Assembly: GCF_023238205.1 (NCBI RefSeq)
Contig: NZ_CP096659.1
Location: forward strand, 2,435,626-2,499,625
Source of the DNA: Halorussus limi
Lineage (GTDB): Archaea > Halobacteriota > Halobacteria > Halobacteriales > Haladaptataceae
Length of the DNA: 64,000 bases
Direction of reading: 5' to 3'
The position numbers and the translations under genes are program-made. Under the pieces are notes generated by a model. The model was not told the origin of the DNA, did no database searches, and saw only the letters and a program-made list of their open reading frames with translations. Of the stretch, positions 14,501 through 60,472 are shown in pieces. How positions within the stretch are numbered: position 1 is the stretch's first letter; each line of letters starts with the position of its first letter.

Positions 14501-16175
14501 GGGCGGCCACCTCCCGGGGAGCAAGGTCGACGAGATGATAGCCCACGTCCGGTACGCCACGCCCGGCGTCGGTCTCATCTCGCCGCCGCCCCAGCACGAC
14601 ATCTACTCCATCGAGGACCTCAAGCAGTTGGTCTACGACCTCAAGTCGGCGAACCCCGACGCCGACGTGAACGTGAAACTGGTCTCGGAGGACGGCATCG
14701 GCACCATCGCCGCCGGCGTCGCGAAGGCCAACGCCGACGTGGTCCACGTCTCGGGCCACTCGGGCGGCACCGGCGCGAGTCCCCGGACCTCCATCAAGCA
14801 CGCGGGCCTGCCGTGGGAACTCGGTCTGGCGGAGGCCAACCAGATGCTCCGGGAGACGGGCCTGCGCTCGCGGATTCGCGTGAGCGTGGACGGCGGACTG
14901 AAGACCGGCCGCGACGTGGCCGTCGCGGCCCTGCTCGGCGCGGAGGAGTACGTCTTCGGCACCGCCAGCCTCGTGACTTCGGGGTGCGTGATGGCCCGCC
15001 AGTGCCACGAGAACACCTGCCCGGTCGGCGTCGCCACTCAGCGCGAGGACCTCCGCCGGCGGTTCCCCGGCGAACCCGACCACGTCGTCAACTACATGCT
15101 GTTCATCGCGCAGGAACTCCGGGAAATCATGGCCGAACTCGGCTTCGAGACGGTTGAGGAGATGGTCGGGCGCGTCGAGTGCCTCGAACAGCGCGCGACC
15201 GACCACCCGAGGGCCCGCGGTCTCGACCTCGCGTCGGTCGTCGCGGACCCCGCCGACTACGACGCCGCCGACCCCCAGCGGACCAAGACCCGCGAACAGC
15301 GCCACGGACTCGACGACCACCTCGACCGCGACCTGCTCGCGGCCGCCGAGTCGGCGGTCGAGGACGCCGACCCCGCGCACGTCGAGGCCGCCGTCGGCAA
15401 CGAGGACCGCGCGGTCGGCGCGATGCTCTCGGGTCGCATCTCCCAACTTCACGGCGAGTCGGGCCTGCCGACCGGGACCCTCTCCTGTGACTTCCGCGGC
15501 ACCGCGGGCCAGAGCTTCGGGGCCTTCCTCCAGTCTGGCGTGGACTTCCACCTCACGGGCGCGGCCAACGACTACCTCGGCAAGGGACTGTCGGGCGGCC
15601 GCATCGCCGTCTCGACCCCGGAGTCGGCGGCCTACGACCCGGCGGAGAACGTCGTGGTCGGCAACGTCGCGCTCTACGGCGCGACCGACGGCGAAGCCTA
15701 CGTCAACGGCGTCGCGGGCGAGCGATTCGGCGTCCGAAACTCCGGCGTCAAGGCGGTCGTGGAGGGCGTCGGCGACCACGGGTGCGAGTACATGACCGGC
15801 GGCGTCGTCGCGGTGCTGGGCGAGACCGGCCGGAACTTCGCGGCGGGGATGTCGGGCGGCGTGGCGTACGTCCTCGACGAGTCGGGCGACTTCGCGGAGA
15901 AGGTGAACCGTGGCATGGTGAGCGTCGAAGACTCGCTGTCGGAGCGCGACGAGAACGTCCTCCGGCGACTCGTGGAGAACCACGCGGCCTACACCGACAG
16001 CGAGCGCGCGGCGGAACTGCTCGCCGACTGGGACGACGCGCTGGCGGCGTTCGTGAAGGTGATGCCCGAGGCCTACGAGCGCGCCGTGACCGAGGAGGGC
16101 CGCGAGGACGTGCGCAACTCGCCGCCGCCGCGTGCGAGTGGAAAACCACGTCTCGCCGGAAGTCGGGCCGATTAA
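11529..16175 (+). CDS. gltB: Glutamate synthase large subunit
   Basis: This 1548-residue enzyme converts glutamine plus 2-oxoglutarate to two glutamates. All four domains are present: the class II glutaminase domain beginning at Cys44 (RANCGVGVVMDL), a central domain, the FMN synthase barrel with the [3Fe-4S] cysteines in C-x5-C-x4-C spacing (GCVMARQCHENTCPVG), and the C-terminal GXGXG beta-helix (GGRIAVSTPE, GGVVAVLGETG). The 43 residues before Cys44 should be a cleaved propeptide. No gltD is adjacent; ferredoxin may supply electrons, or the small subunit is elsewhere. ATG 11529 is preferred to a TTG four codons upstream. The C-terminus has about 20 residues beyond the core. Confidence 0.95.
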   Translation: MTEYPPSASDGRPQPGDRPQSGERVRGRDDADRLADPEDYRANCGVGVVMDLAGEGGHDVLADGLDLLENLEHRGTTGAEENTGDGAGVLLRKPHDFFADELDADLPDPDEYAVGSLFLPTDETARDRLQSLAESVLEDEGLDLFAWREVPTENADLGRTALDAEPEIWQCFVRAESEDGEGHDAEGGDEFDPQSFDRDLYVARRVLERSVEGVDLAGADRFYVCSLDRQTVVYKGLLKGEQLPDYFPDLRDDRFETTFAMVHARFSTNTLGAWHLAHPYRNVVHNGEFNTIRGNVNWMRARENDLESEAFDPDSVTPVVADPEGSDTAAVDNALELLMQGGRELPHALRLMVPEAWRKDDQMTDERKEFYDFHASLLEPWDGPALVAATDGERVGAVLDRNGLRPCRYDVTTDDRLVMASEAGALDTDESEIRERGRLEPGQLFLADPEEGRVVPDAEVFDDLTDEKYGEWVEDQQVELDVPEDADPRAGATADARIDAALRERQTAFGYTRDELDELLEPMAEDGKDPVGSMGDDTPLSVLSEFDRPLFSYFKQLFAQVSNPPIDYLREDCVTSLESRLGNQRNLLSETPAHARQLVLDSPVLTDAETAEVREQDEIPTATVDATYDPETDLETAVRRVRREASEAVEDGAEILVLSDREVGPDRLAVPSLLATAAVHHHLVRNGLRNRTGLVVESGDPRTVHHLACLVGYGAGAVNPTLAFESIADLVAGPDGVSEAEAIEAYVAALEDGLQKTMSKMGISTVESYRGAQIFEAVGLDSDFVEEYFEGTPARTEGVGIEGVEADLRERHAKAFGGDGEDAPEPERQGEFEHRSNGRRHQWNPETVGSLQRAVRQDDPDTYAEFAEAVNDQNGDLQTLRGLLEFDSAGRDPIPVEAVEPVESIVERFSTAAMSLGSLSPEAHENNAVAMNRLGAKSNTGEGGEPPERFGTERECNVKQVASGRFGVTSAYLANAEEIQIKMAQGSKPGEGGHLPGSKVDEMIAHVRYATPGVGLISPPPQHDIYSIEDLKQLVYDLKSANPDADVNVKLVSEDGIGTIAAGVAKANADVVHVSGHSGGTGASPRTSIKHAGLPWELGLAEANQMLRETGLRSRIRVSVDGGLKTGRDVAVAALLGAEEYVFGTASLVTSGCVMARQCHENTCPVGVATQREDLRRRFPGEPDHVVNYMLFIAQELREIMAELGFETVEEMVGRVECLEQRATDHPRARGLDLASVVADPADYDAADPQRTKTREQRHGLDDHLDRDLLAAAESAVEDADPAHVEAAVGNEDRAVGAMLSGRISQLHGESGLPTGTLSCDFRGTAGQSFGAFLQSGVDFHLTGAANDYLGKGLSGGRIAVSTPESAAYDPAENVVVGNVALYGATDGEAYVNGVAGERFGVRNSGVKAVVEGVGDHGCEYMTGGVVAVLGETGRNFAAGMSGGVAYVLDESGDFAEKVNRGMVSVEDSLSERDENVLRRLVENHAAYTDSERAAELLADWDDALAAFVKVMPEAYERAVTEEGREDVRNSPPPRASGKPRLAGSRAD

Positions 16176-16191
16176 TCCCTTAGTCGTTTCC

Positions 16192-16305
16192 TCAACTGCT
16201 TGACCTGCGAGCTATTTCCTGCAGATAGTAGAGGACAGCACCGACGATGAGTACGGTTAGAATCACGAAACCCCAGAACAGCATCATTGTACTTGATGTG
16301 AACAT
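16192..16305 (-). CDS. 37-residue single-helix membrane peptide
   Basis: From ATG at 16305 the frame reads MFTSSTMMLFWGFVILTVLI, then VGAVLYYLQEIARRSSS and TGA: a short polar N-terminus, one strong transmembrane helix (about 8-28) and a basic tail. It lies 58 bases downstream of the alpha-toroid gene on the same strand and within the same AT-rich island, so it is probably the last gene of that unit. It is small enough to be missed by routine annotation. By shape it could be a membrane anchor, a modulator or a toxin-like peptide; none of these is shown. Only the one upstream gene start supports expression. Confidence 0.5.
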   Translation of the reverse strand: MFTSSTMMLFWGFVILTVLIVGAVLYYLQEIARRSSS

Positions 16306-16363
16306 TGGAGGCTACAACTTACATTTCTGATAAAGATATTTAAAGTTTGTACTATATCGGAGA

Positions 16364-18190
16364 CTAACTTGTTTTAACTATTTGTAGCGCTCGAAGGCCC
16401 CAATAGGTGTATCGCATTTCGGGACTCAACTGATCAGTTCTCTTCGAAAGGATTGGGCTGAATCCTCCGTCAGGATGCTGGGCCGATCGAATACTCGATT
16501 TGAGCCCCGACTTGTTCTCAATATTAGTTCCGAGGGTCTGGAGTACACCGACACTCAGATACGTTGCGTACAAGTTTGAATGATTACTTTGGTTGTTTCC
16601 GACACGGTAATTGTAACCATTTTCTGTCCGTGTGGAACGAATCCACTCTACTGTTGCCGATTGGTTAGCAACCGGGTGACCGAGACAGTCTAGTGTCTTT
16701 ATCGCGTAGTAAGTCCCCTCGGTGGTGGGAGAAGTACCGGCTCCATAACCGCCAGTTTCGTGACGTTGTGCGGCCACGTGGTTACTAACTCGCGACTCAT
16801 TCAGCCCGTACGACGACTTATTTGAGAGGTAAGCTATGTAGTATACGTGTTTTAGCCTCGTAGTGCTATTCTGGAGATATGTTTCCGAATATCTACTAAG
16901 TTGTTTTCGGATTGCTTGATCAGATGGTGTCGGAACGCCTAAGAGTGTAGCAGTTCGGTACACTCGGTACAGTTCCTTCGGACTCGCAGCTTTACCACGT
17001 TCGATTTTCTGCACTTCACGTTGGATGATAGAAGCAGTCTTCTCGGAGTGATGCTGTTCAGTACGGAGTGCGTTTAAAATCGAAACTCCGTAGTAAGTAT
17101 CGTCAAGTGACGCGGACGGCCGGAATGCAAAGGAGAATCCTCCAGAACGTAGTCCATATGATTTAACCAACTCCTCCAGTTTCGACTGATCGAGTTCGTC
17201 GTACTGGTTCGCAGATAGCGTCCGTATCGCTAAATACGTCCCCTTCGATTCAGAGAACCCTTGATTGAACGCGTGATAGCCACCATCGGGGAGCTGATTC
17301 CTTACGATGTATTCGTCGATCTCGTTTTGGGATACTTCACCTTTCACATCTAACGTCTGGGTCAGGTAATCGTAAGCGCTAATTCCGAACATGTCTGCCT
17401 TTTTATTTTCTATTCGGCGGTCAACGTTTTCCCCTTGGCCTTCTACCCACGCTTTCCGCTGGTCATATCTCGGGAGACTTTTCGGCTCTATACCCAGGAT
17501 TTTTAGCGACATCACTATCCGTTCCGCACGAGGTAAATCTTGGTACCGTTGGAACTGAGTATCGTTTTTCCAGCGTGAGAGTAACCACTCACGGGTTCGG
17601 GTCAAGTTTTTACTTTCGAGTGCGCTCACCGTCTCTAATGTCGCCAGCGCACGGTAGGTCGATAACAATCGGTTTTCACCATTAACGCACGTACCGTTAG
17701 CATATACTGCAGCGCAATATGAGCCATCGGACTTCCGGAATTGGCTTATTTGTTTAATCGTTCCTTTGCGGTTGAGCGGCTTCGCTCCTAATTCTTCCAA
17801 GCTACCGACTACGTAGAAGATGTCCGCTATCTTCGTGGTATTGGCTTCTGCATGTCTGTATCTCTTAGATTCTATCCCTCGAAGCCATTCTGTTGTTTCG
17901 TCCGTGTTCGTTTTCTTGAAATCCATCTCCGACGATACCTGAAGGTAATAATAGGTTGGGTACAGTTTAGCTTCCCCGTTTGGAATTTCCCCGAATCCAC
18001 CTCGGGGACTCTCTGCCTGTTGCACCACTTGTTGAGTTTCTTGGTACTTGGAAGCGTTGAGAGAGGGCGATTTGTGTGTCACAGATGTTTCTTGCCGCGA
18101 CTTCCCCAGTGGTTCATGAAGGGTAACAGTCACTACTGAGGAGACTATCAAAACAGCCACTACGACTTTTGGTATCGTTGCTCGTTTCAT
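16364..18190 (-). CDS. Exported prenyltransferase/squalene-cyclase-like alpha-toroid protein
   Basis: This 608-residue protein has a hydrophobic signal or anchor (about 8-27). At least five repeats of the GGF/GGY...TYYA.K.L type follow: RGGFGEIP, DGGYHAFN, SGGFSFAF, TGGYGAGT and DGGFSPIL, each followed by a Tyr-rich helix (PTYYYLQ, GTYLAIR, DTYYGVS, GTYYAIK). This is the signature of the alpha/alpha-barrel seen in terpene cyclases, prenyltransferase beta subunits and complement C3. The DxDD cyclase motif and the zinc site are not evident, so it is probably a binding scaffold. About ten N-x-S/T sequons suit an exported glycoprotein. The gene is AT-rich, unlike its surroundings, and follows the exported protein gene by 31 bases. 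Confidence 0.75.
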   Translation of the reverse strand: MKRATIPKVVVAVLIVSSVVTVTLHEPLGKSRQETSVTHKSPSLNASKYQETQQVVQQAESPRGGFGEIPNGEAKLYPTYYYLQVSSEMDFKKTNTDETTEWLRGIESKRYRHAEANTTKIADIFYVVGSLEELGAKPLNRKGTIKQISQFRKSDGSYCAAVYANGTCVNGENRLLSTYRALATLETVSALESKNLTRTREWLLSRWKNDTQFQRYQDLPRAERIVMSLKILGIEPKSLPRYDQRKAWVEGQGENVDRRIENKKADMFGISAYDYLTQTLDVKGEVSQNEIDEYIVRNQLPDGGYHAFNQGFSESKGTYLAIRTLSANQYDELDQSKLEELVKSYGLRSGGFSFAFRPSASLDDTYYGVSILNALRTEQHHSEKTASIIQREVQKIERGKAASPKELYRVYRTATLLGVPTPSDQAIRKQLSRYSETYLQNSTTRLKHVYYIAYLSNKSSYGLNESRVSNHVAAQRHETGGYGAGTSPTTEGTYYAIKTLDCLGHPVANQSATVEWIRSTRTENGYNYRVGNNQSNHSNLYATYLSVGVLQTLGTNIENKSGLKSSIRSAQHPDGGFSPILSKRTDQLSPEMRYTYWGLRALQIVKTS

Positions 18191-18221
18191 TGTACAAAAA
18201 TATGCTCCGAAACGGGAGTGT

Positions 18222-18908
18222 TTAGACCCAGTCCTTCCCTTGCGAGTCCGGATTCAGGTCGACGTGCGTACTTGGAGTGTAAGCCGTTCCGCTAAACTTG
18301 AAGGTGAAGTAGTCGTTCTGGTCCGCGTCTTTGAACTTACCGCCCGTTTCAAAGACAATGCCACTGTACTGCTTACTAACGTCCCACTTGTCTTGCCACG
18401 AAGTCGTAAGACTTGCCTTTTTGTTACCGTTAGACACGGTCCAGGACGGTGGAATGCTCAGAGAGACACTCGAAGTGCCCTCAACTCCGATAGTAATCAC
18501 TTGTTCGATTTTGATCGTGTCTGCAGTGTACGGGTCACTGCCGTACCACGTGGCTTCCGACGTACCGTTGACCGTCATTTTGTTTTCCGACTCGCTGTAG
18601 TCTGTCTGCTCCGCGAAGCGAGTCTGACCTTTCATATCGGCTCCGTTGTGAGTCGACGAAGCTTGATCGGTACCTTCCTTCGTATCGTAGACGGCCTGTG
18701 TTCCGACCTGTCCCGAGGAGGAACTGCTTCCTTCACAGTTCTGTTCTTCTAGTTGCTCAGCGTACGCTCGTTTATCTTCGACTGTCTTCCCGGTCGCGTA
18801 CGTACAATCCGAATCTCCAGACTGTGCCATTGCACCGGGCGCGAAGACACTACTGAGGAGAGCAATAGTGACTATCGCCACGGATAGCTTCTTAGCTTTC
18901 TTTCTCAT
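18222..18908 (-). CDS. Exported protein of unknown function
   Basis: From ATG 18908 the 228-residue product starts with a Sec signal peptide (MRKKAKKLSVAIVTIALLSS, cleavage probably after GAMA). The mature part begins with a Cys pair (DSDCTY...EEQNC, a likely disulfide), a Ser run, and then a beta-rich domain (VITIGVEGTSSVSLSIPPSW, YFTFKFSGTAYTPSTHVDL). A longer start at 18968 is rejected because it hides the signal peptide and the promoter lies between the two. It is the first gene of the AT-rich unit, behind nested palindromes. I recognise no family; beta-sandwich adhesin, toxin or binding-protein roles are possible. Confidence 0.7.
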   Translation of the reverse strand: MRKKAKKLSVAIVTIALLSSVFAPGAMAQSGDSDCTYATGKTVEDKRAYAEQLEEQNCEGSSSSSGQVGTQAVYDTKEGTDQASSTHNGADMKGQTRFAEQTDYSESENKMTVNGTSEATWYGSDPYTADTIKIEQVITIGVEGTSSVSLSIPPSWTVSNGNKKASLTTSWQDKWDVSKQYSGIVFETGGKFKDADQNDYFTFKFSGTAYTPSTHVDLNPDSQGKDWV

Positions 18909-18944
18909 TGGGTACAACCCAATATTATAACTATACTGGGTTGT
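18907..18944. promoter_or_regulatory. Nested inverted repeats over the TATA box of the AT-rich unit
   Basis: Two overlapping palindromes are present. The first (18907-18923) is perfect: ATTGGGT-ACA-ACCCAAT. The second (18914-18944) has 12-base arms ACAACCCAATAT and ATACTGGGTTGT, one mismatch, around a 7-base TATAACT centre. The minus-strand TATA box (GTATAGTTATAA, 18926-18938) falls inside the second, about 27 bases before the start. Three ACCCA half-sites in this arrangement suggest a cooperatively bound repressor. Confidence 0.7.
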
Positions 18945-19003
18945 TAAAAACTTTTCTGAACACTTCATCTACGGTGAAAGATAAGGCTAACGGGCAAAGA
19001 AGG

Positions 19004-19762
19004 TCACAGATACGACGCGTCCCACCGAGTCGGCTTCTTCTGGTTGCCGCAGTCGTTACACTCCAACCGCTCCATCGAGTCCATCGCGGTGTCGAAGCTC
19101 TGGCAGTTCGAACAGAACCAGCCGTAGAGGTCCTCTCCCTCCTCGTCGGTGTAGGCGGCGTAGAACGGGGCGTCGGACCCGCGCTCGCTCTCCGCCCAGT
19201 TGACGTAGAGGGTCTGGCCCTCGAACTCGCGGGTCTCGTACTTGGCCCTGCCCTCGTGGACGTAGACGTTCTCGACGAAGCTCTCGTCGCCGATTTCACG
19301 CTCCCGTTCGCTGACCTTCTCGAAGCCGTTGGCCTCGTAGAAGGTGCATCCGGCCTCGTTCTCCGCGAGGACCTCCCCGGCGATGCGCTCGACGCCTCGC
19401 TCCGAGAGCGTGGCCAGCGTGTGGTTCAGCAGGGTGGTCCCGACGTTCTTGTCGCGGTTGTCGGGGTCGACGTGCAACCAGAGGATGGTGCCGTCCTCCC
19501 CGGCCACGAGGTTCTGCGAGAAGCCGACGACCTCGTCGCCCGCGACCGCGACGAGGTAGAGCATCCCCTCCTCGTCGAGTTCGGCGTCCATCGCGTCGTC
19601 GGCGTACCACTTCTCGACCGCGGTCTCGACGACTTCCCCGCCGAGCACGTCGGCGTAGGATTCGTGGAGCGACTCCAGCGCGACGTTCCGAATCCCTTCC
19701 ACGTCGCTCGATTCGGCTTCGCGGATTTCGATTCCGTCGGAGTCGGCCTCTCTCTGTCCCAT
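19004..19762 (-). CDS. GNAT acetyltransferase with C-terminal zinc-ribbon domain
   Basis: The 252-residue product has an N-terminal GNAT domain (about 10-160): IREAESSDVEGIRNVALESL, then ILWLHVDPDNRDKNVGTTLL with the acetyl-CoA loop, then AENEAGCTFYEANGFEKV. A second domain (about 180-252) contains FCSNCQSFDTAMDSMERLEC and CNDCGN, two CxxC knuckles that should bind zinc. This two-domain form recurs in haloarchaea; the ribbon may recognise a protein or RNA substrate. The start at 19762 is placed at the ATG about 27 bases after a GTTTATC TATA-like element; an upstream in-frame extension is not protein-like. Confidence 0.85.
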   Translation of the reverse strand: MGQREADSDGIEIREAESSDVEGIRNVALESLHESYADVLGGEVVETAVEKWYADDAMDAELDEEGMLYLVAVAGDEVVGFSQNLVAGEDGTILWLHVDPDNRDKNVGTTLLNHTLATLSERGVERIAGEVLAENEAGCTFYEANGFEKVSEREREIGDESFVENVYVHEGRAKYETREFEGQTLYVNWAESERGSDAPFYAAYTDEEGEDLYGWFCSNCQSFDTAMDSMERLECNDCGNQKKPTRWDASYL

Positions 19763-19950
19763 GCCCCATGTATTCGACGTTCTCACTGATAAACGTTCTA
19801 CCCGATTCGACCAAATCAGACGAAAAGCGAACGAATAGCCCGGATTAATTCGTACTTTGATACGCACGTTCGGTAACTGTCTCAGAATCGGTCGAACGTC
19901 GTATTTCCGACTCCAGTAGGTCTTTGAGACTGGTCGTCCAAGCGCGGGGC

Positions 19951-20940
19951 ATGGACACCGCACTCGTCGTCGGCGGCACGCGGTTCATCGGCCGCCACCT
20001 CGTCTCGGAACTGCGCGACCACGACTACGACGTGACCATCTTCAACCGCGGGAACCACGACAACCCCTTCGCGGAGACCGAGGGCGTCACCCACTACGAG
20101 GGCGACCGGAGCAACGAGACCGCGCTCGAACGGGCGAAGCAGGAAGTCGAACCCGACGCCGTCTTCGACTGCGTGGCGTACAAACCCCGAGAGGTCCGGG
20201 CCGCCACCGAGATTTTCTCCGACGCGGACGCCTACGTCTACATCTCCAGCGGCGACGCCTACGGCAACGAGGAGATTCCCAAGCGCGAGGGCGAGACCGA
20301 ACTCCGGCCCTGCACGATGGAGCAGGCGACCGACGACTCGGGCGACACCTACGGCAACCGGAAGGCCGAGGGCGACCGTGCGATTCGGGCCGCCGCCGAC
20401 CGCGGCGTGAACGCCTACAGCGTCCGGCCCTGCATCGTCTACGGTCCCCACGACTACACCGAGCGACTCGACTACTGGATAGACCGGGTGGCGAACTACG
20501 ACCGCGTCGTCGTGCCCGGCGATGGCGACAACGTCTGGCACCGCGCCTACGTCGAGGACGTGGCGAGCGCGCTCCGGGTAGTCGCCGAGGAGGGGACGCC
20601 CGGCGAGGCCTACAACGTCGGGGACCGCCGCGTCGTGACGATAGACGAGATGTTGGAACTGATTGCGGACGCGATGGACACCGACCTCGAAATCGTCCAC
20701 GCGGGCGAGCGCGAACTCGCGGCCGCGGACCTCTCGCCCGACGACTACGTCCTCTACCGGGACTACCCGCACGTGCTGGACACCGACAAACTGGCGGCGC
20801 TCGGGTGGGACTCGACGCCGCTCTCGGAGGCGATGGCGGCCACCGTCGAGGAACACCTCGACAGCGACCGCGACGGGAGCGAGTACGACCCCGGCCGCGA
20901 GGCCGAGGAGCGCGTCCTCGGCGTGCTGGACACGCTCTGA
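19951..20940 (+). CDS. NAD-dependent epimerase/dehydratase family protein
   Basis: This 329-residue extended short-chain dehydrogenase begins with the NAD-binding glycine motif VVGGTRFIGRHLV. A weak active site follows (YISSGDAYGN, then GDTYGNRKAEGDRAI with the YxxxK catalytic pair). RPCIVYGPHDYTERLDYW and the C-terminal helix pattern are typical of atypical SDRs related to nucleotide-sugar epimerases and plant CSP41-like proteins. The substrate is not evident. The ATG at 19951 directly precedes the glycine-rich strand, which fixes the start. No sugar genes are adjacent. Confidence 0.85.
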   Translation: MDTALVVGGTRFIGRHLVSELRDHDYDVTIFNRGNHDNPFAETEGVTHYEGDRSNETALERAKQEVEPDAVFDCVAYKPREVRAATEIFSDADAYVYISSGDAYGNEEIPKREGETELRPCTMEQATDDSGDTYGNRKAEGDRAIRAAADRGVNAYSVRPCIVYGPHDYTERLDYWIDRVANYDRVVVPGDGDNVWHRAYVEDVASALRVVAEEGTPGEAYNVGDRRVVTIDEMLELIADAMDTDLEIVHAGERELAAADLSPDDYVLYRDYPHVLDTDKLAALGWDSTPLSEAMAATVEEHLDSDRDGSEYDPGREAEERVLGVLDTL

Positions 20941-53506: not shown

Positions 53507-55039
53507 TCACTCCCCGCGCTTGGGCAGGTCCTCGACAGCGGGGCCGTCCAGCACCTCGCCGTCTATCGAGAACCGCGAACCGTGACACGGACAGTCCCAC
53601 GACCGCTCGGCGTCGTTCCAGTGGACGATGCAGTCCATGTGAGTGCAGACCGCCGAGGTGACGTGGATTTCGCCGTCGTCGTCGCGGGCGACCGCGTACT
53701 GCTTGCCGCCGCGTCGAATCACCTCGCCCTCGCCCGGTGCGACGTTCGGGTCCTCGCCGCGGAACGGTGCCTTCGCCCAGTCGCGGGTGAACTCCTTGCC
53801 CACGTCGAGGTTCTCCTTCAGGAACTCCTTGCCTCCCGCCTCCGGGTCGATGCGCTCGGGGTCGAAGGCGTCGCTCCACTGCGGCGACTTGCCCCGTGCG
53901 TATTCGGCGAGCATCTTTCCGGTCGCGGTCCCGTTGGTCATGCCCCACCCGCCGAACCCCGTGGCGACGTACACGTCGTGGGTCGTCGGGCCGAGTTCGC
54001 CCACGAACGGAATCTTGTCGACGGACACGTAGTCCTGCGTGGACCAGCGGTACTCGACCGACTCCACGTCGAAGTGGTCGCGGGCCTGCGCCTCCAGTTT
54101 CCGGTACCGGTCGGCGGTCGAACCGCCCTGCCCGGTCTTGTGGTTCTGGCCGCCGACCAGCATCGTCGGTCCGTCCGCGTTCGGGACGGGACGTGCCGAG
54201 AAGTAGGGCGACTGGTCGCGGTAGAACATCCCCTCGGGCGGTTCCTCGGCGAGTTCGACCGCCAGCACGTACGACCGCTTGGGGTACTGGCGCGCGAAGT
54301 AGAACGCCGGGTCCTCGATGGGGAAGTGGGTCGTCAGCAGGACGCTCTCGGCGGTGACCGTCCCGTTCTCGGTCTTGACCCGGCAGGGGTCGTCCCGGCC
54401 GCCGTCGTCCACGTCCGTCACTTTCGTCTGCTCGAAGACGTGCGCCTCGTCGCCGGAAATCTCGTCGGCGAGTTCGAGCAGGTACTTCCGGGGGTGGAAC
54501 TGGGCCTGGTCGGCGAACTTGACCGCGCCGGGCGTGTCGGCGGGGAACGGCGGGTCCGTGACGAACTCCGCCGGCAGGTCGAGTCCCTCGGCGACCGTGG
54601 CCTCGCGGCCGACCGCGGCGCGTTGGTCCTCGTCGGCGGCGTAGGTGTAGGCCGGGAGGCGCTCGAATCCGCAGTCGATGTCGTGGCGCTCGACCCGTTC
54701 GGCTATCTCCTCGACGGCGGCCGCGTTGGCCCGGGCGTACTGTCGGGCGGCGTCCCGCCCGTGCTTGTCGACCAAGTCGTCGTAGATGAGGCCGTGCTGG
54801 GCGGTGACCTTCGCGGTCGTCTTGCCGGTGACGCCCTCGACGATGCGGTCCCGCTCTAACAGGACGACCGACTGGCCCGCCTCCGCGGCGTGGAGCGCGG
54901 CGGTGACGCCCGCGATGCCGCCGCCGACTACCGCGGTGTCGACGTGCCGGTCGCCGTCCATCGCCGGGAAGTCGGTCCGGTCGGTCGTGTCCAACCACAG
55001 CGATGCGTCCTTCCCCGGTAACGGCTGTCGTTCTGTCAT
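53507..55039 (-). CDS. FAD-dependent oxidoreductase with C-terminal Rieske domain
   Basis: The 510-residue product has an N-terminal DadA-like FAD domain (VDTAVVGGGIAGVTAALHAAEAG, LLERDRIVEGVTGKTTAKVT) and a C-terminal Rieske [2Fe-2S] domain with CTHMDC and CPCHGSRF ligands (about 463-485). Fused proteins of this type are found in bacteria and haloarchaea; electron donor and substrate are unknown. ATG 55039 is used; a longer frame upstream (MPSPKRSRR...) is basic and not protein-like here. The Rieske part may pass electrons from the flavin. Confidence 0.87.
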   Translation of the reverse strand: MTERQPLPGKDASLWLDTTDRTDFPAMDGDRHVDTAVVGGGIAGVTAALHAAEAGQSVVLLERDRIVEGVTGKTTAKVTAQHGLIYDDLVDKHGRDAARQYARANAAAVEEIAERVERHDIDCGFERLPAYTYAADEDQRAAVGREATVAEGLDLPAEFVTDPPFPADTPGAVKFADQAQFHPRKYLLELADEISGDEAHVFEQTKVTDVDDGGRDDPCRVKTENGTVTAESVLLTTHFPIEDPAFYFARQYPKRSYVLAVELAEEPPEGMFYRDQSPYFSARPVPNADGPTMLVGGQNHKTGQGGSTADRYRKLEAQARDHFDVESVEYRWSTQDYVSVDKIPFVGELGPTTHDVYVATGFGGWGMTNGTATGKMLAEYARGKSPQWSDAFDPERIDPEAGGKEFLKENLDVGKEFTRDWAKAPFRGEDPNVAPGEGEVIRRGGKQYAVARDDDGEIHVTSAVCTHMDCIVHWNDAERSWDCPCHGSRFSIDGEVLDGPAVEDLPKRGE

Positions 55040-55121
55040 GCCCGAACCCTCCGGAACGAGTCCCGGTTCGGTCGCGTGTCGCTTAACCTCGGTGGCCCGG
55101 GTAGCGAGTCGGCACCGGCGG

Positions 55122-55763
55122 CTACGCTTCGGGGACGGCAACCACGTCGGGCGGTTCGGCGTCGGCCTTCGCGGCCAGAAAGTCGCGCTCCGCGGGCGCG
55201 AGGTCGTCTCGCTCCCGATAGGCGTCGAGTCCGGTCCGATAGCGCTCGGCCGACCGGTCGCCGGGAGAGGCGAGGACCAACTCGGCGAGACCGGTCTCCT
55301 CGCCGGTGTAGCCGAACCCGGCCTTGTAGAGCGCGTGGTACGCGAAGGGGTTGTTCACCGCGATGCGGACCCGGTCGTACCCCCGCTCGCGGAGTCGCGC
55401 GGTGGCGAACCGACAGAGCCGCGCGCCGACGCCCGCCCCGCGTCGGTCGCGCCGGACCGTGACGTACCGAAGCCACGCCGCCGTCGAGTCGGTCCGGTCC
55501 TCGTTGAACGCGACGGCTCCGACGATGCGGTCGTCCTCGACCCACTCGCGGTCCGGCGCGTCGGTCCCCGGTAGCTCCTCGGTCGCTTCGGCGTTGCCGC
55601 CGGTCCGGCCCTCGTCGTCCCCCGGCGACCGCTCTCCGACCGGTTCGCGGGCCACCGCCTTCCCGGTGTTCGACATGACGAACTTCCCGGCGTAGCTGAA
55701 CTCGCGGTGGTCGAGTCGGAGTTGCGGGCCGTCGTCTGGCCACCCGAGTACCGCGTACTGCAT
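55122..55763 (-). CDS. GNAT family acetyltransferase
   Basis: The 213-residue product has a GNAT core in residues about 75-165 (RIVGAVAFNEDR, WLRYVTVRRDRRGAGVGARLCRFA with the acetyl-CoA R/Q-x-x-G-x-G/A loop, YHALYKAGFGYTGEE). An N-terminal segment of about 35 residues (VLGWPDDGPQLRLDHREFSYAG) and an acidic disordered linker precede it. Substrate unknown. It lies 82 bases upstream of the Rieske protein start on the same strand. Confidence 0.85.
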   Translation of the reverse strand: MQYAVLGWPDDGPQLRLDHREFSYAGKFVMSNTGKAVAREPVGERSPGDDEGRTGGNAEATEELPGTDAPDREWVEDDRIVGAVAFNEDRTDSTAAWLRYVTVRRDRRGAGVGARLCRFATARLRERGYDRVRIAVNNPFAYHALYKAGFGYTGEETGLAELVLASPGDRSAERYRTGLDAYRERDDLAPAERDFLAAKADAEPPDVVAVPEA

Positions 55764-55903
55764 GGCCGGACTTGGGGTTCTGGCGGTAACTCCCCTTCGC
55801 TCGCGAGTTCGGGACCGAGAGGTTTCGTTCGGCGCTCGCTAATTTTGTGAGACTCAGAATCACTACCGAAAACGAAAAATTACCGACCGGAGCGGCCAGA
55901 ACA

Positions 55904-55912
55904 GTTATATTA
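55904..55912 (+). promoter_or_regulatory. TATA box before the H-NOX gene
   Basis: A clear GTTATATTA element is centred 27 bases before an ATG at 55935, the expected distance to a transcription start. If it serves the H-NOX gene the leader would be about 122 bases and would carry the short upstream frame described next. Confidence 0.6.
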
Positions 55913-55934
55913 CCGCTCCGAATCGGATTCAATC

Positions 55935-56075
55935 ATGTATCAGCGTCGGAGGGTTCGGCCCAGCGCCCGGAACCGCCGGAGGGCGACCCGCTGCGCCGAG
56001 TCGGTTCCGCCCGAACAGTCCAGAAGCCGACCTCTCACGGAACGGTGGTGTGAGCCTTGCACGGCATCGTGCTGA
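55935..56075 (+). CDS. Possible 46-residue upstream mini-ORF overlapping the H-NOX start
   Basis: ATG 55935 lies exactly where a leaderless transcript from the TATA box should begin. The frame runs 46 codons and ends inside the H-NOX gene, overlapping its TTG start by 19 bases. The peptide (MYQRRRVRPSARNRRRATRC...) is Arg-rich and unlike halophilic proteins, so it is more likely a translational control element, or chance, than a functional protein. Ribosomes finishing it could restart at the nearby TTG. Confidence 0.3.
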   Translation: MYQRRRVRPSARNRRRATRCAESVPPEQSRSRPLTERWCEPCTASC

Positions 56076-56596
56076 AAGGTCTGAAGGACTTCGTGACCGC
56101 GGAGTACGACCGCGAGGCGTGGCGCGCGATTCAGGACGAGGCAGGTCTCGGCGGCAAGGTGTACGTCCCCGTCACCGAGTACGAGGACGCCGACGCGTTG
56201 AATCTCGTGGACGCGGCCGCCGAGGCCACCGGCGAGGACCCGCCGGACCTGCTCGACGCCTTCGGTCGGTTTCTGGTCCCGCCGCTGGTCGAGACCTACG
56301 GCGTTCACGTCGAGGAGGACTGGACCGGTCTCGAACTGATAGCCAACGTCGAGACGTACATCCACGAGGCGCTTCGGGGCAAGCAACTCTCGACGTACAC
56401 GCCGCCCGCGCTCTCGGCGGAGTGGGTGGGCGACGAGACGGTGAAAGTGACCTACGCCTCCGAGCGCGAACTCTGCTCGCTCGCCAAGGGACTGCTGGCC
56501 GGCGTCGGCGACTACTACGACGAACAGGTGGAGGTGACCGAACCGACCTGCATGCACGAGGGCGACGACCGCTGCGAACTGGTCGTCACCCGATAG
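56057..56596 (+). CDS. H-NOX (haem-nitric oxide/oxygen binding) sensor protein
   Basis: The 179-residue protein begins MHGIVLKGLKDFV, the H-NOX N-terminus. It has the proximal haem ligand His103 in NVETYIHEALRG and the YxSxR haem-propionate motif (Tyr133-Ser135-Arg137, in VTYASERELCSLAKGL). It should bind haem and sense NO or O2. The distal pocket residue that separates O2 from NO sensing cannot be assigned by eye. Translation starts at TTG 56057: an in-frame stop is just upstream (56051) and the alignment fixes the start. A transducer gene lies 152 bases downstream on the same strand. Confidence 0.88.
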   Translation: MHGIVLKGLKDFVTAEYDREAWRAIQDEAGLGGKVYVPVTEYEDADALNLVDAAAEATGEDPPDLLDAFGRFLVPPLVETYGVHVEEDWTGLELIANVETYIHEALRGKQLSTYTPPALSAEWVGDETVKVTYASERELCSLAKGLLAGVGDYYDEQVEVTEPTCMHEGDDRCELVVTR

Positions 56597-56681
56597 GTCC
56601 CCACTCCCGACGCGCCGACGGCCGTTCGCCTCTCGCGAAAACTCCGAGACCGAGAGCCATCAGTTGAATTTTCTTCTACTC

Positions 56682-56690
56682 TATATTTTA
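56682..56690 (+). promoter_or_regulatory. TATA box of the transducer gene
   Basis: A TATATTTTA element lies 59-67 bases before ATG 56749 and would start transcription near 56712, giving a short leader. The transducer may thus have its own promoter as well as reading from H-NOX. Confidence 0.45.
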
Positions 56691-56748
56691 TAATCTGGAA
56701 TTCATGTTGCGTGAAGATTTATTACGCCGTGCTGATTGGGTTCTCTCA

Positions 56749-58680
56749 ATGTCTAACTTTGCGCGCGCACTCGTCCCTGCTTTCGTCAGGCGACGGTACT
56801 CGTTGAAGTTCGGTCTGACGATGGTACTGGTCGGCGCGGCCGCGGCCGGGGGGTTGTACGCGAGCGGTCAGTTCGACCGAACTGTCGTCGGTGCGACGTT
56901 CGGCGGCGCACTCCTCGCCGGCGTCGTCGGAACCGCCGTCTCGTGGCGAACGAGTCGGTCGCTCGACCGACTCGTCGAGAGCGCCGAGCGCCGGGCCGAC
57001 GGCGAAGACCCGTCCTTCGACTCGGCCCGCATCGACTCCGTGGGTCGGGTCGCCGACTCGATGGCCGACACTCACGAGACCTTGGTCGAACAGCACCGGG
57101 CCAGACTCGCGGCCGAGGACCTGAACGCCCACGTCGAGCAGAAGGCCGAGACGTACGGCGAAGTGATGCGCCGGTGCGCCGACGGCGACCTCGACGAGCG
57201 CATGGATCCCAGTTCCGAGAGCGAGGCGATGAACCGGGTCGCCACCGAGTTCAACGAGATGATTTCGGAGTTCGAGGAGACCGTGGACAACCTGACGCGG
57301 TTCGCCAACGAGGTGGCGACCTACAGCCAAGAGGTCACGCTCAGCACCGAGGAGGTCAGCGACGGGAGCGCCCGCGTCGTCGACTCCCTGCGGGACATCT
57401 CCGCGGAGGCCGAGACCCAGACCGACGACCTGCGGGCCGCCACCGAGCAGATGAACCGCCTCTCGACCGCGGTTCAGGAGGTCGCGGCATCGACCGACGA
57501 GGTGGCCTCCATCGCCGAGCGGACCGCCGAGACCGGCCGCGAGGGCCGGGCGGCCGCCACCGACGCGGTCGAGGGCATGAACGACATCGAGAGCGAGTCA
57601 GAGGACACCGTCGAGGCCATCGAGAGCCTCGAAGCCGAGGTCCAGCAGGTGGACGAACTCATCGACTTCATCTCCGAAATCGCCGAGCAGACCAACATGC
57701 TCGCGCTCAACGCCCACATCGAGGCCTCGCGGGCGGGCGAGCAGGGCGCCGGCTTCGCGGCCGTGGCGAACGAAATCAAGGAACTCGCCGAGCGCACCAA
57801 GGAGGCGGCGGCCGACATCGAACAGCGCCTCAACGGGATTCGGGACCAGACCGACCGGACGGTCGACGAGGTCCGGGACACCAGCGAGCGCATCGCCCAG
57901 CAGACCGACTCCGTCGAGAACGCCGCCGAGGCGCTCGCGGACATCGCGGGCTACGCCCAAGAGACCAACGCCGGCGTCCAAGAGATTTCCGACGCGACCC
58001 AAGAGCAGGCCGACTCCACGAAGGAGGCCCTCGACATGGTCGAGGAGGCCGCCGCGGTCAGCGAGGGCATCACCGACGAGGCGACGACGGTCGCGGCCTC
58101 CGCGGAGTCCCAGACGATGGCGCTCTCGCAGGTCTCCGACAGCGCGAGCGACCTCGCCCGGCAGGCGACTCGACTCAGCAACGCTCTCGACTCGTTCGAC
58201 ACCGACGAGGCGATGGTCGGCGACGAGGCCGACGACGCGGAACCCGAGGCGAGCAACGATGCGGAACCCGAGGCTACCGACGACGCAGCGACCGAGGAAC
58301 GCGACGAGGTAGAAGTCGCGTCCGAGGACGCGAAGCCTGAAGCAAGCGACGATGCGGAAACCGAGGCCGACGGCGACGCCGACTTCGAGGACGGCGACGC
58401 CGACGCCGTTCACCCCGACGACCGCGACACCGAGTCGGTGGCGGTCTCCTCGACGGCGGACGACGCGGACGCACTGCCGGAAGACGAAGAAGCGGACCCG
58501 CTGGTCGAAGACGCGGAAGCGGACCCGTCGGCCGAAGATGCCGAGGGCGCGGGGACCGACCCGCTGGTCGAAGACGCCGACGCCGAGACGCCCGAGACCG
58601 ACGGCGGCGAACCGGCGGACCTCGACGACCCGACGGACGGCGACGAACCGACCGACGCCGCGGAGGACGAGGAGGTCTGA
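56749..58680 (+). CDS. Methyl-accepting chemotaxis protein without an extracellular sensor
   Basis: The 643-residue transducer has two close helices (about 20-37 and 45-65) with a loop of about 8 residues, a HAMP-like stretch (to about 120), long coiled coils and the invariant signalling tip ([41 protein letters not shown], in outline about 315-355). Residues 484-643 form an acidic, repetitive tail ([17 protein letters not shown]) without a CheR-tethering pentapeptide. With no outside domain it must read the membrane or a cytosolic partner such as H-NOX upstream. ATG 56749 ([22 protein letters not shown]) is the halobacterial transducer start; an in-frame ATG at 56704 is too near the TATA box (56682-56690). 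Confidence 0.92.
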
Positions 58681-58683
58681 CGG

Positions 58684-59190
58684 ATGAGCGGCGACATCAG
58701 CGCGGCGACGCCGCCCGAGACCACCGAGAACCGACGCGAGTGGGTCGAGTTCGTCCGATTCCCGCTCGGCGGGCGTGCCTACGGACTGGAACTCGGCCGG
58801 GTCGAGCAGATAGTCTCCGACCCCGACGTGACGCCGGTTCCCCAGACCGGTCCGGCCATCGCGGGCGTGACCAACCTCGGGAGCGAACTGCCGGTCGTCG
58901 TGGACGCCGGCGCCCTGCTGGGTCTCGCGGACGGAGCGCCGGCCGACGAGGCGACGCTCCTCCTGCTGGACCGGGGCGACGCCCGGCCGACCGGCCTGCT
59001 GGTCGAGGAGGTGACGGGCATCGACGCCCACCACGTCGATACCGTCGCGGTGCCCCACGAGGCCGCGTGGGACCCGCCGGTCGGACGGCGGTGGTTCCGG
59101 GCCGTGGTCGAGGCGTCCGAGCGCACCGACGAGCCAATCGGGGTCCTCGACCTCGACGTTCTCGTCGCCAACGCGAGGGATCAATCGTGA
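58684..59190 (+). CDS. cheW: CheW-like chemotaxis coupling protein
   Basis: The 168-residue product has the CheW SH3-like pattern: VEFVRFPLGGRAYGLELGRVEQIV, VTPVPQTGPAIAGVTNLGSELPVVVDAGALLGL and RPTGLLVEEVTGID. The family couples transducers to CheA. It starts 3 bases after the transducer stop and its TGA overlaps the cheC start, so the operon is tightly packed. CheA, CheB, CheR and CheY are not in the window, so this CheW must join signalling genes elsewhere. Confidence 0.9.
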   Translation: MSGDISAATPPETTENRREWVEFVRFPLGGRAYGLELGRVEQIVSDPDVTPVPQTGPAIAGVTNLGSELPVVVDAGALLGLADGAPADEATLLLLDRGDARPTGLLVEEVTGIDAHHVDTVAVPHEAAWDPPVGRRWFRAVVEASERTDEPIGVLDLDVLVANARDQS

Positions 59191-59933
59191 CGCCCGAAAA
59201 CGACGCCGCCGAGCAGACCGACCGGGCGGACGAGGAGACGGGCGCGAGCGACCGCTCGGGCGACCAGCGAGCGCCAGCGGACGACCGCGAGTCGACGGCC
59301 GACCCCGACCCGGCGGCGAGCGCCGACGAGCCGTCGATTCCGCTCGAAACGCTGGCGGTGCTGAACTGGTTGGGCGACGAGGGCGTCAGCGGGGTCGAGT
59401 CCCGACTCAACGACGTGCTGGACGACGACCTGTCAGTGACGACCGAGCAGGTCAAAATCGGCTACGCCGACCAAGCGACCGTCGCCAGCCAGTTCCGGGG
59501 CGAGGACCGCGCCGGGGCGCGGGTCCTGCTGAGCAAGCCGCTGGTCGGGAACGTGCTGGTCGTGTTCCCGATGGACAGCGCGAACAAGGCCGCGGCGCTG
59601 ATGCTCCAGCGGGCGGTCGAGGACCTCTCGTCGGTCTCGACCGAGATGGGCCGGGACGCGCTGACCGAACTCTGCAACATGATGGCCAACGGGTTCGTCG
59701 ACGAGTGGGCCACGCTGTTCGAGACGACCATCGACACGGGGTCGCCGGTCCCGGTGCAGGACCCCGAGCGGACCCTCGTCGCGCGCATCCTCAAGCAGTA
59801 CGGGGTCGGCCTGTTCATCCGGTCGCGGCTACGAATCCCCAGACACGACGTGGACGCGGCGATATACATGTTCCCCGGCAAGCAGGAGTTCGTCACGAAG
59901 CTCTCGGCGGTCGACCTCGAGGTGATAGAGTGA
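59187..59933 (+). CDS. cheC: CheC-type CheY-P phosphatase
   Basis: The 248-residue product has an acidic disordered start (about 1-47) and a CheC domain. The phosphatase pattern D-x3-E-x2-N-x22-P is complete: Asp157, Glu161, Asn164 and Pro187 (DALTELCNMMANGF...GSPVP). The GTG at 59187 overlaps the cheW stop (GTGA). CheC removes phosphate from CheY and is tuned by CheD, which follows. A second active-site copy, usual in CheX or FliY, is not visible. Confidence 0.88.
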   Translation: MTPENDAAEQTDRADEETGASDRSGDQRAPADDRESTADPDPAASADEPSIPLETLAVLNWLGDEGVSGVESRLNDVLDDDLSVTTEQVKIGYADQATVASQFRGEDRAGARVLLSKPLVGNVLVVFPMDSANKAAALMLQRAVEDLSSVSTEMGRDALTELCNMMANGFVDEWATLFETTIDTGSPVPVQDPERTLVARILKQYGVGLFIRSRLRIPRHDVDAAIYMFPGKQEFVTKLSAVDLEVIE

Positions 59934-60472
59934 AGACGTACGAGTCGAACCCCGACGACCCCGACCGCGAGCGCCGGTTCGTCGGCGTCTCGGAGTACGA
60001 GGTCGTGGGCGACGGGTCGACGCTCGCGGCCTACGGTCTCGGCGCGTGCGTCGGCCTCGCGGTCTACGACCCCGAGAACGCGGTCGGCGGCCTCGCCCAC
60101 GCGATGCTCCCCCGCCAGTCGGAGGGCGACGGCACCAGCGAGGGCAAGTACGTCGACGCCGCGGTCGAGACGATGCTCCGCGAAGCGGTCTCGGCGGGCG
60201 CGAGTTACGGGGCGCTGGAGGGGTACGTCGTCGGCGGGAGCGACCTGCTCGACCTCCGGGAACTCCCCCGGGAGGTCAGCGACGACAACGTCGCGACCGC
60301 CCGCGAGGCGTTCGCGGAACTCGACGTGCCGGTCGAGGGCGCGGACGTGGGCGGCGGCCGCGGCCGGACCGTGGAGTTCGACACCGGGACGGGCCGCATC
60401 GCGGTCCTGACCGCGTACGACCCCGAACCGATTCTGCTCCGCGTGGGCGAGGACGACGAAGACGGGTCGTAG
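59930..60472 (+). CDS. cheD: CheD (receptor glutamine deamidase)
   Basis: The 180-residue product has the catalytic Cys40 (AYGLGACVGL), His57 (GLAHAMLP) and the GSDLLD/GRTVEFDTGTGRI segments of CheD. CheD deamidates transducer glutamines and binds CheC. GTG 59930 overlaps the cheC stop (GTGA). It ends the transducer-cheW-cheC-cheD operon; a U-rich stretch (CCCTTTTG, about 60485) follows. Confidence 0.92.
   Translation: MKTYESNPDDPDRERRFVGVSEYEVVGDGSTLAAYGLGACVGLAVYDPENAVGGLAHAMLPRQSEGDGTSEGKYVDAAVETMLREAVSAGASYGALEGYVVGGSDLLDLRELPREVSDDNVATAREAFAELDVPVEGADVGGGRGRTVEFDTGTGRIAVLTAYDPEPILLRVGEDDEDGS

Follow-up and report, generated by a model that had tools for sequence, protein, structure and literature searches.

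The stretch of DNA analyzed here, called the window, covers 64,000 nucleotides (nt) of the Halorussus limi genome (NZ_CP096659.1, G000:C1:2435626-2499625), and all positions below are window coordinates unless a locus is named. It carries a plus-strand cluster coding for an H-NOX sensor, a methyl-accepting chemotaxis protein (MCP, or transducer), CheW, CheC and CheD, each of which exceeds its own Pfam cut-off. The H-NOX gene (56057-56596, + strand) starts at a TTG codon and encodes 179 residues; it was assigned from the PF07700 (HNOB) profile, residue motifs, the starts of its relatives and the predicted fold. The profile matches residues 2-161 with 114 bits (cut-off 25.5), and the proximal His103 and the Y133-x-S135-x-R137 motif are both present, in agreement with the intact haem motifs noticed in an earlier interpretation made from the letters of this DNA only (the sequence-only reading). 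The TTG start is backed by TTG or GTG at the equivalent position in four relatives. The closest solved relative is the Shewanella oneidensis H-NOX (2kii, E 2.6e-19), and an AlphaFold model of the haloarchaeal protein (mean pLDDT 75) matches the S. oneidensis structure 4u9b with a TM score of 0.86. Among named organisms, Halorussus aquaticus has the most similar H-NOX (82% identity). A TATA-like element (gttatattac, 55904-55913, + strand), a putative promoter, is kept in the upstream sequences of the window, L076, L053 and L164. At leaderless distance 3' of this element, and still ahead of the H-NOX start, an ATG that is out of frame with H-NOX (55936-56072) could open a leader ORF; this candidate was rejected, its frame not being preserved in L164.

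The transducer gene (56704-58680, + strand; PF00015, E 2e-36) encodes 658 residues, or possibly 643 if translation starts at 56749. Its membrane part is a hairpin of two helices (residues ∼37-55 and 61-79) joined by a very short loop without any outside domain, as expected from the tiny extracellular loop described in the sequence-only reading. The CheA/CheW-binding tip is intact. A 180-residue acidic tail with repeats closes the protein (58138-58680). The gap between the H-NOX and MCP genes measures 107 nt and contains a second TATA-like element (ttttataatc, 56686-56695, + strand), conserved in L164 and possibly functional. This suggests that the MCP gene has a separate promoter, and the position of the element points to 56749 rather than 56704 as the true start. 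The following genes code for the CheW adaptor (58684-59190, + strand, 168 residues; PF01584, E 6.9e-16), CheC (59187-59933, + strand, 248 residues; PF04509, phosphatase motif, 3qta with E 7.5e-13) and CheD (59930-60472, + strand, 180 residues; PF03975, alignment with Thermotoga maritima CheD 2f9z and family alignment). Overlapping frames had been reported throughout this part of the cluster; an overlap of 4 nt is found at the CheW-CheC and CheC-CheD junctions, but MCP and CheW are separated by a gap of 3 nt.

The association of the two first genes was surveyed in 391 genomes of the class. An HNOB match was obtained in 86 of them, a raw count which overstates the haem-type H-NOX, and the proteins without the proximal His were set apart as group B. 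Group A, in which the proximal His is kept throughout, consists of 45 proteins at 42 loci in 38 genomes, the window genome included. L038 and L040 were excluded from it, as they display a Tyr at position 103 and the gene order of group B. Among the group A loci, L043, which bears a transducer, looks truncated and L073 stops at a contig edge. At 33 of the 42 loci, across several families, a transducer gene comes next, and in about two dozen loci its start precedes the end of the H-NOX stop codon by 3-7 nt. Two-helix hairpins without an outside domain make up nearly all transducers at H-NOX loci, membrane helices being absent from two, and the CheA/CheW-binding tip is kept. Furthermore, the H-NOX and MCP distances are correlated (Mantel r 0.89, reached by 0 of 2000 permutations), shared species history contributing to this value. 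These data are in agreement with the earlier proposal that the partner of H-NOX is the neighbouring transducer, and on such genomic grounds H-NOX is very probably the input of the window transducer. Fortuitous adjacency was considered as well: H-NOX would then work on another partner and merely lie beside chemotaxis genes. An adjacent transducer is indeed missing in 8 of the 42 loci, one further locus being at a contig edge, and the other neighbours at those loci code for a kinase with PAS domains, a flavin amine-oxidase-like protein, a cupin and a NifU-like protein. Against the 33 of 42 loci observed, however, chance predicts about 0.2% per gene (from 9 transducers in each genome and an estimated gene number) and accounts neither for the overlapping frames nor for the correlated distances, which makes it a very improbable explanation. 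Another group A H-NOX copy adjoins the flavin amine-oxidase-like gene, with no transducer (L044:7998-9885, L054 and L032). No relative was found in viral contigs, and the plasmid matches among those listed comprise one haloarchaeal match (Natrinema, 57%) and bacterial ones.

The remark in the sequence-only reading that CheA and CheY are not nearby holds within the window but does not describe the design of the cluster. In the Halorussus genomes G374 and G384, in H. aquaticus and in LT46, a divergent truncated haemoglobin gene is followed by cheY, cheA, a gene for a second CheC (CheC_L), H-NOX, in some cases a second H-NOX (H-NOX2), MCP, cheW, cheC and cheD. The order in Haloferax and Salinigranum is divergent truncated haemoglobin, H-NOX, MCP, CheW, CheY, CheA, CheC, CheC_L and CheD, and in Halocatena marina and two more genomes it is H-NOX, H-NOX2 in some cases, MCP, CheW, CheY, CheA, CheC_L and CheD. 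In the window genome, the genes for CheC_L (its G374 counterpart is 95% identical), for the cluster's own CheA and CheY (CheA2 and CheY2) and for the truncated haemoglobin were found in inverted orientation at G000:C1:2424795-2430386, ∼61-66 kb upstream and outside the window. The genes which now flank the breakpoints, a methyltransferase-like gene on the upstream side and the GNAT (55122-55763) and oxidoreductase (53507-55141) genes on the other, are contiguous in G374 and G384. The right breakpoint lies approximately at 55889, close ahead of the H-NOX promoter, where homology starts in a blastn comparison of the G374 CheC_L-to-H-NOX region with the window. These comparisons indicate that an inversion of ∼66 kb, seen in the window genome only (L157:8169-14386 versus window 53507-56057), has cut the cluster in two, and each half appears to retain its own promoter. 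A long repeat was found at neither breakpoint. The case illustrates how the reading of a single window can mislead, the "missing" CheA being merely relocated. The divergent truncated haemoglobin of Halorussus, Haloferax and Salinigranum (L157:14024-14386, L076:2230-2610, L075:7453-7818) is a possible NO-detoxifying partner. H-NOX2, a divergent H-NOX encoded between H-NOX and the transducer in Halocatena and in some Halorussus (L076:8647-9240, L053:8638-9174, L051:8578-9114), is missing from the window genome.

The phospho-accepting His of CheA2 and the Asp of CheY2 are kept, and in unrooted trees each of the two proteins splits from the motility CheA or CheY with a support of 100/100. In the genomes with a full cluster, the presence of a dedicated CheA2/CheY2 partner pathway is thus highly likely from gene content and phylogeny. 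None of the H-NOX clusters examined contains CheB, CheR or CheF (no genome-wide search was made for CheB).

The window CheC displays the full phosphatase motif D/S-x3-E-x2-N-x22-P in the form D-x3-E-x2-N-x22-P: DALTELCNMMANGFVDEWATLFETTIDTGSP. In CheD, the catalytic triad is formed by Cys, His and Thr (Cys27, His44 and Thr21 in T. maritima; PMC7022378). The alignment with 2f9z shows that the Cys and His are kept in the window CheD and that the equivalent of Thr21 is replaced by Ala, a substitution common to the CheD of every H-NOX cluster aligned. In addition, the Cys is changed to Ser in the two Halocatena-lineage genomes G277 (H. marina) and G183, assigned to the same genus, and in L169, and the His to Arg in G384, whereas the main CheD of the window genome keeps all three residues. 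This loss of catalytic residues argues against a standard deamidase, and any adaptation by CheC and CheD would be non-enzymatic. CheR was not detected in either of the Halocatena-lineage genomes tested (G277 and G183). Adaptation based on CheC and CheD, as had been proposed for this receptor, is plausible but not in the form of standard deamidation; our best guess is that binding of CheC and CheD supplies the feedback while the receptor stays unmodified, in line with B. subtilis (PMC3513319).

The nature of the signal was approached through the residues of the ligand pocket. Leu142 of the window H-NOX occupies the position of Tyr140 in the O2-binding Thermoanaerobacter protein, and none of the 47 related haloarchaeal H-NOX possesses the distal O2-stabilizing Tyr (V, L, F, W or I is found instead). 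H-NOX proteins without this Tyr bind NO, and by the published rule the haloarchaeal proteins are predicted to bind NO and CO and to form no stable O2 complex (PMC8738867, PMC12329717). Besides, all 47 haem-type sequences share Cys140, Cys165 and Cys173, which align with the zinc ligands Cys139, Cys164 and Cys172 of the S. oneidensis H-NOX. The zinc site of Shewanella- and Vibrio-type H-NOX (groups 2 and 3) is made of three Cys and a His or Gln (PMC7108781), whereas the fourth position is a Glu in 44 of the 47 sequences (Glu162 in the window protein). Both the missing Tyr and the three conserved Cys make NO or an oxidant a likelier signal than O2. Of the NO- or O2-directed sensing first put forward, the NO part thus stays favoured and the O2 part is weakened. 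The three invariant Cys make oxidant sensing a real alternative or addition: H-NOX could be mainly an oxidant sensor acting through a three-Cys metal site, with haem and NO as secondary elements. Apart from the invariance of these Cys, which a haem-less haloarchaeal paralogue group also retains, this is compatible with the activation of the Caulobacter H-NOX by oxidation of the corresponding Cys and not by NO (PMC12329717) and with that of the haem-free Vibrio H-NOX by oxidation (PMC7108781). The MCP-linked group, however, strictly retains the haem ligands, a globin adjoins the cluster in three genera, and the Glu at the fourth position renders metal binding only putative. A mainly oxidant-driven sensor is on balance rather unlikely, and the pocket residues make NO the somewhat favoured candidate for the main ligand.

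As regards the output, the sequence-only reading had predicted taxis or c-signalling; the gene neighbourhood gives no support for cyclic-nucleotide or c-di-GMP signalling. Archaellins are encoded in the window genome, together with two CheF and, at ∼3.5 Mb, a main che cluster; CheF adjoins this main cluster and lies outside the H-NOX cluster, so that taxis is possible in this organism. H-NOX and its transducer could accordingly be an ordinary taxis input, in which common receptor arrays would relay NO or oxygen-related signals to the main CheA, CheY and CheF and to the archaellum. The intact transducer tips are compatible with such a role, as are the many H-NOX/MCP pairs without a private CheA nearby, which fit an input to the general pathway. 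On the other hand, private CheA, CheY, CheW, two CheC and CheD, distinct from the main ones, are retained in several genera, and CheF, CheB and CheR occur in no cluster. Moreover, G277 and G183, which represent one lineage, possess a complete H-NOX cluster and exactly one transducer each, and neither archaellin nor CheF nor CheR was detected in these genomes (completeness 98% and 94%). In a survey of 2009, the Methanosarcina che2 regions were the only archaeal che regions without an accompanying CheF (PMC2666748). Archaellum taxis is for these reasons unlikely in the two Halocatena-lineage genomes, where the gene inventory makes an output other than the archaellum highly probable; in the other lineages, the chances of such an output seem about even. 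As a general account of the system, ordinary taxis is possible but rather doubtful.

Taken together, these results suggest that the window locus probably forms the receptor half of a second, dedicated chemosensory pathway of haloarchaea, which H-NOX controls as its cytosolic sensor. The protein would bind NO at a five-coordinate haem and/or be oxidized at the three-Cys zinc-type site. Either event may alter how H-NOX contacts the cytosolic portion of the adjacent transducer, a protein devoid of any outside sensor domain, and control would run from H-NOX to the transducer. The latter would set the activity of CheA2 through the window CheW, and CheA2 would phosphorylate the private CheY2. CheC would strip the phosphate, and CheC/CheD binding would act as feedback without receptor methylation. 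In the window genome, the half carrying CheA2, CheY2, CheC_L and the truncated haemoglobin has been displaced by ∼66 kb through the inversion. A fuller version, that of an NO/oxidant receptor with a private CheA-CheY pair, no receptor methylation and a non-catalytic CheD, acting on gene regulation, surface structures or biofilm rather than on the archaellum and constituting the sole chemosensory system of one lineage, is more tentative and has somewhat less than an even chance of being correct as a whole. Several observations weigh against a dedicated pathway. In addition to the loci without an adjacent transducer, the H-NOX system has a scattered distribution (3 of 9 Halorussus genomes), and neither CheA nor CheY adjoins about three quarters of the H-NOX/MCP pairs, so that the receptor there probably feeds the general pathway. 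The unrooted CheA and CheY trees are compatible with a single origin but do not prove it. A link to denitrification by enrichment of NirK is weak (Fisher p 0.066, kinship uncorrected), NirK occurring in 27 of 40 group A genomes and in 181 of the other 351, and no NirK above the cut-off is present in the Halocatena-lineage genomes.

The proteins of group B (∼70; L086:7941-9439, L133 and ∼68 other loci), none of which has the proximal haem His, have a different neighbour from those of group A: in 66 of 69 loci the gene directly follows a PRPP-synthetase-like gene, and a gene for an HVO_0234-like beta-propeller likewise precedes it. The YxS/TxR motif is mostly kept in these proteins, as are the three Cys. 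They may be haem-free redox or metabolite sensors. Elsewhere in the window, the region 16001-20000 is of low G+C content (0.49-0.56 versus ∼0.69) with few gene calls and is possibly foreign DNA.

The literature searched, outside which most subscription journals lie, yielded no description of a haloarchaeal H-NOX or of an archaeal NO receptor pathway; individual haloarchaeal proteins carry the automatic annotation "heme NO-binding domain-containing". The MCP-linked H-NOX of this literature are solely fused O2 sensors of anaerobic bacteria. The H-NOX-MCP fusion of Caldanaerobacter (Thermoanaerobacter) tengcongensis resembles the present system by its use of H-NOX as a transducer input, and the folds match (1u4h family). 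It belongs to an obligate anaerobe and stabilizes O2 by its distal Tyr (PMC8738867, PMC12329717), whereas the haloarchaeal H-NOX is a separate protein without such a Tyr, with a three-Cys site and a dedicated CheA/CheY set. The H-NOX of S. oneidensis, Vibrio cholerae and Caulobacter are likewise stand-alone NO-type sensors encoded beside an effector gene, are closest in structure and sequence (2kii/4u9b) and share the Cys139/164/172-type site; their partner is a histidine kinase or a c-di-GMP enzyme, as opposed to a transducer predicted to feed CheA, and their fourth zinc ligand is His or Gln instead of Glu. With the taxis system of Halobacterium salinarum (CheA, CheY, CheW, CheC, CheD, CheB, CheR and CheF), the cluster has in common the CheA-CheY core and the CheC/CheD feedback proteins (PMC3579733, PMC2666748), but CheB, CheR and CheF are missing from it, the catalytic residues of CheD are lost, and CheA2 and CheY2 form separate lineages. 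In Bacillus subtilis, CheC and CheD also act jointly with phosphorylated CheY, and binding outweighs enzymatic activity (PMC3513319); that organism nevertheless has CheR, CheB and an active deamidase CheD. The Methanosarcina che2, compared here by its published description, is another archaeal che region without CheF, yet the species carrying it have flagellins and no reported H-NOX (PMC2666748), whereas no flagellin was detected in the Halocatena-lineage genomes. Compared with these systems, the new element would be an NO-type stand-alone H-NOX wired to a transducer, to which several genera add a private CheA/CheY set. Two questions become accessible to experiment in cultivable haloarchaea: whether archaea sense NO or oxidants by the sensor fold known from animal guanylate cyclase, and which functions a chemotaxis-type pathway governs when its archaeal host is apparently unable to swim.

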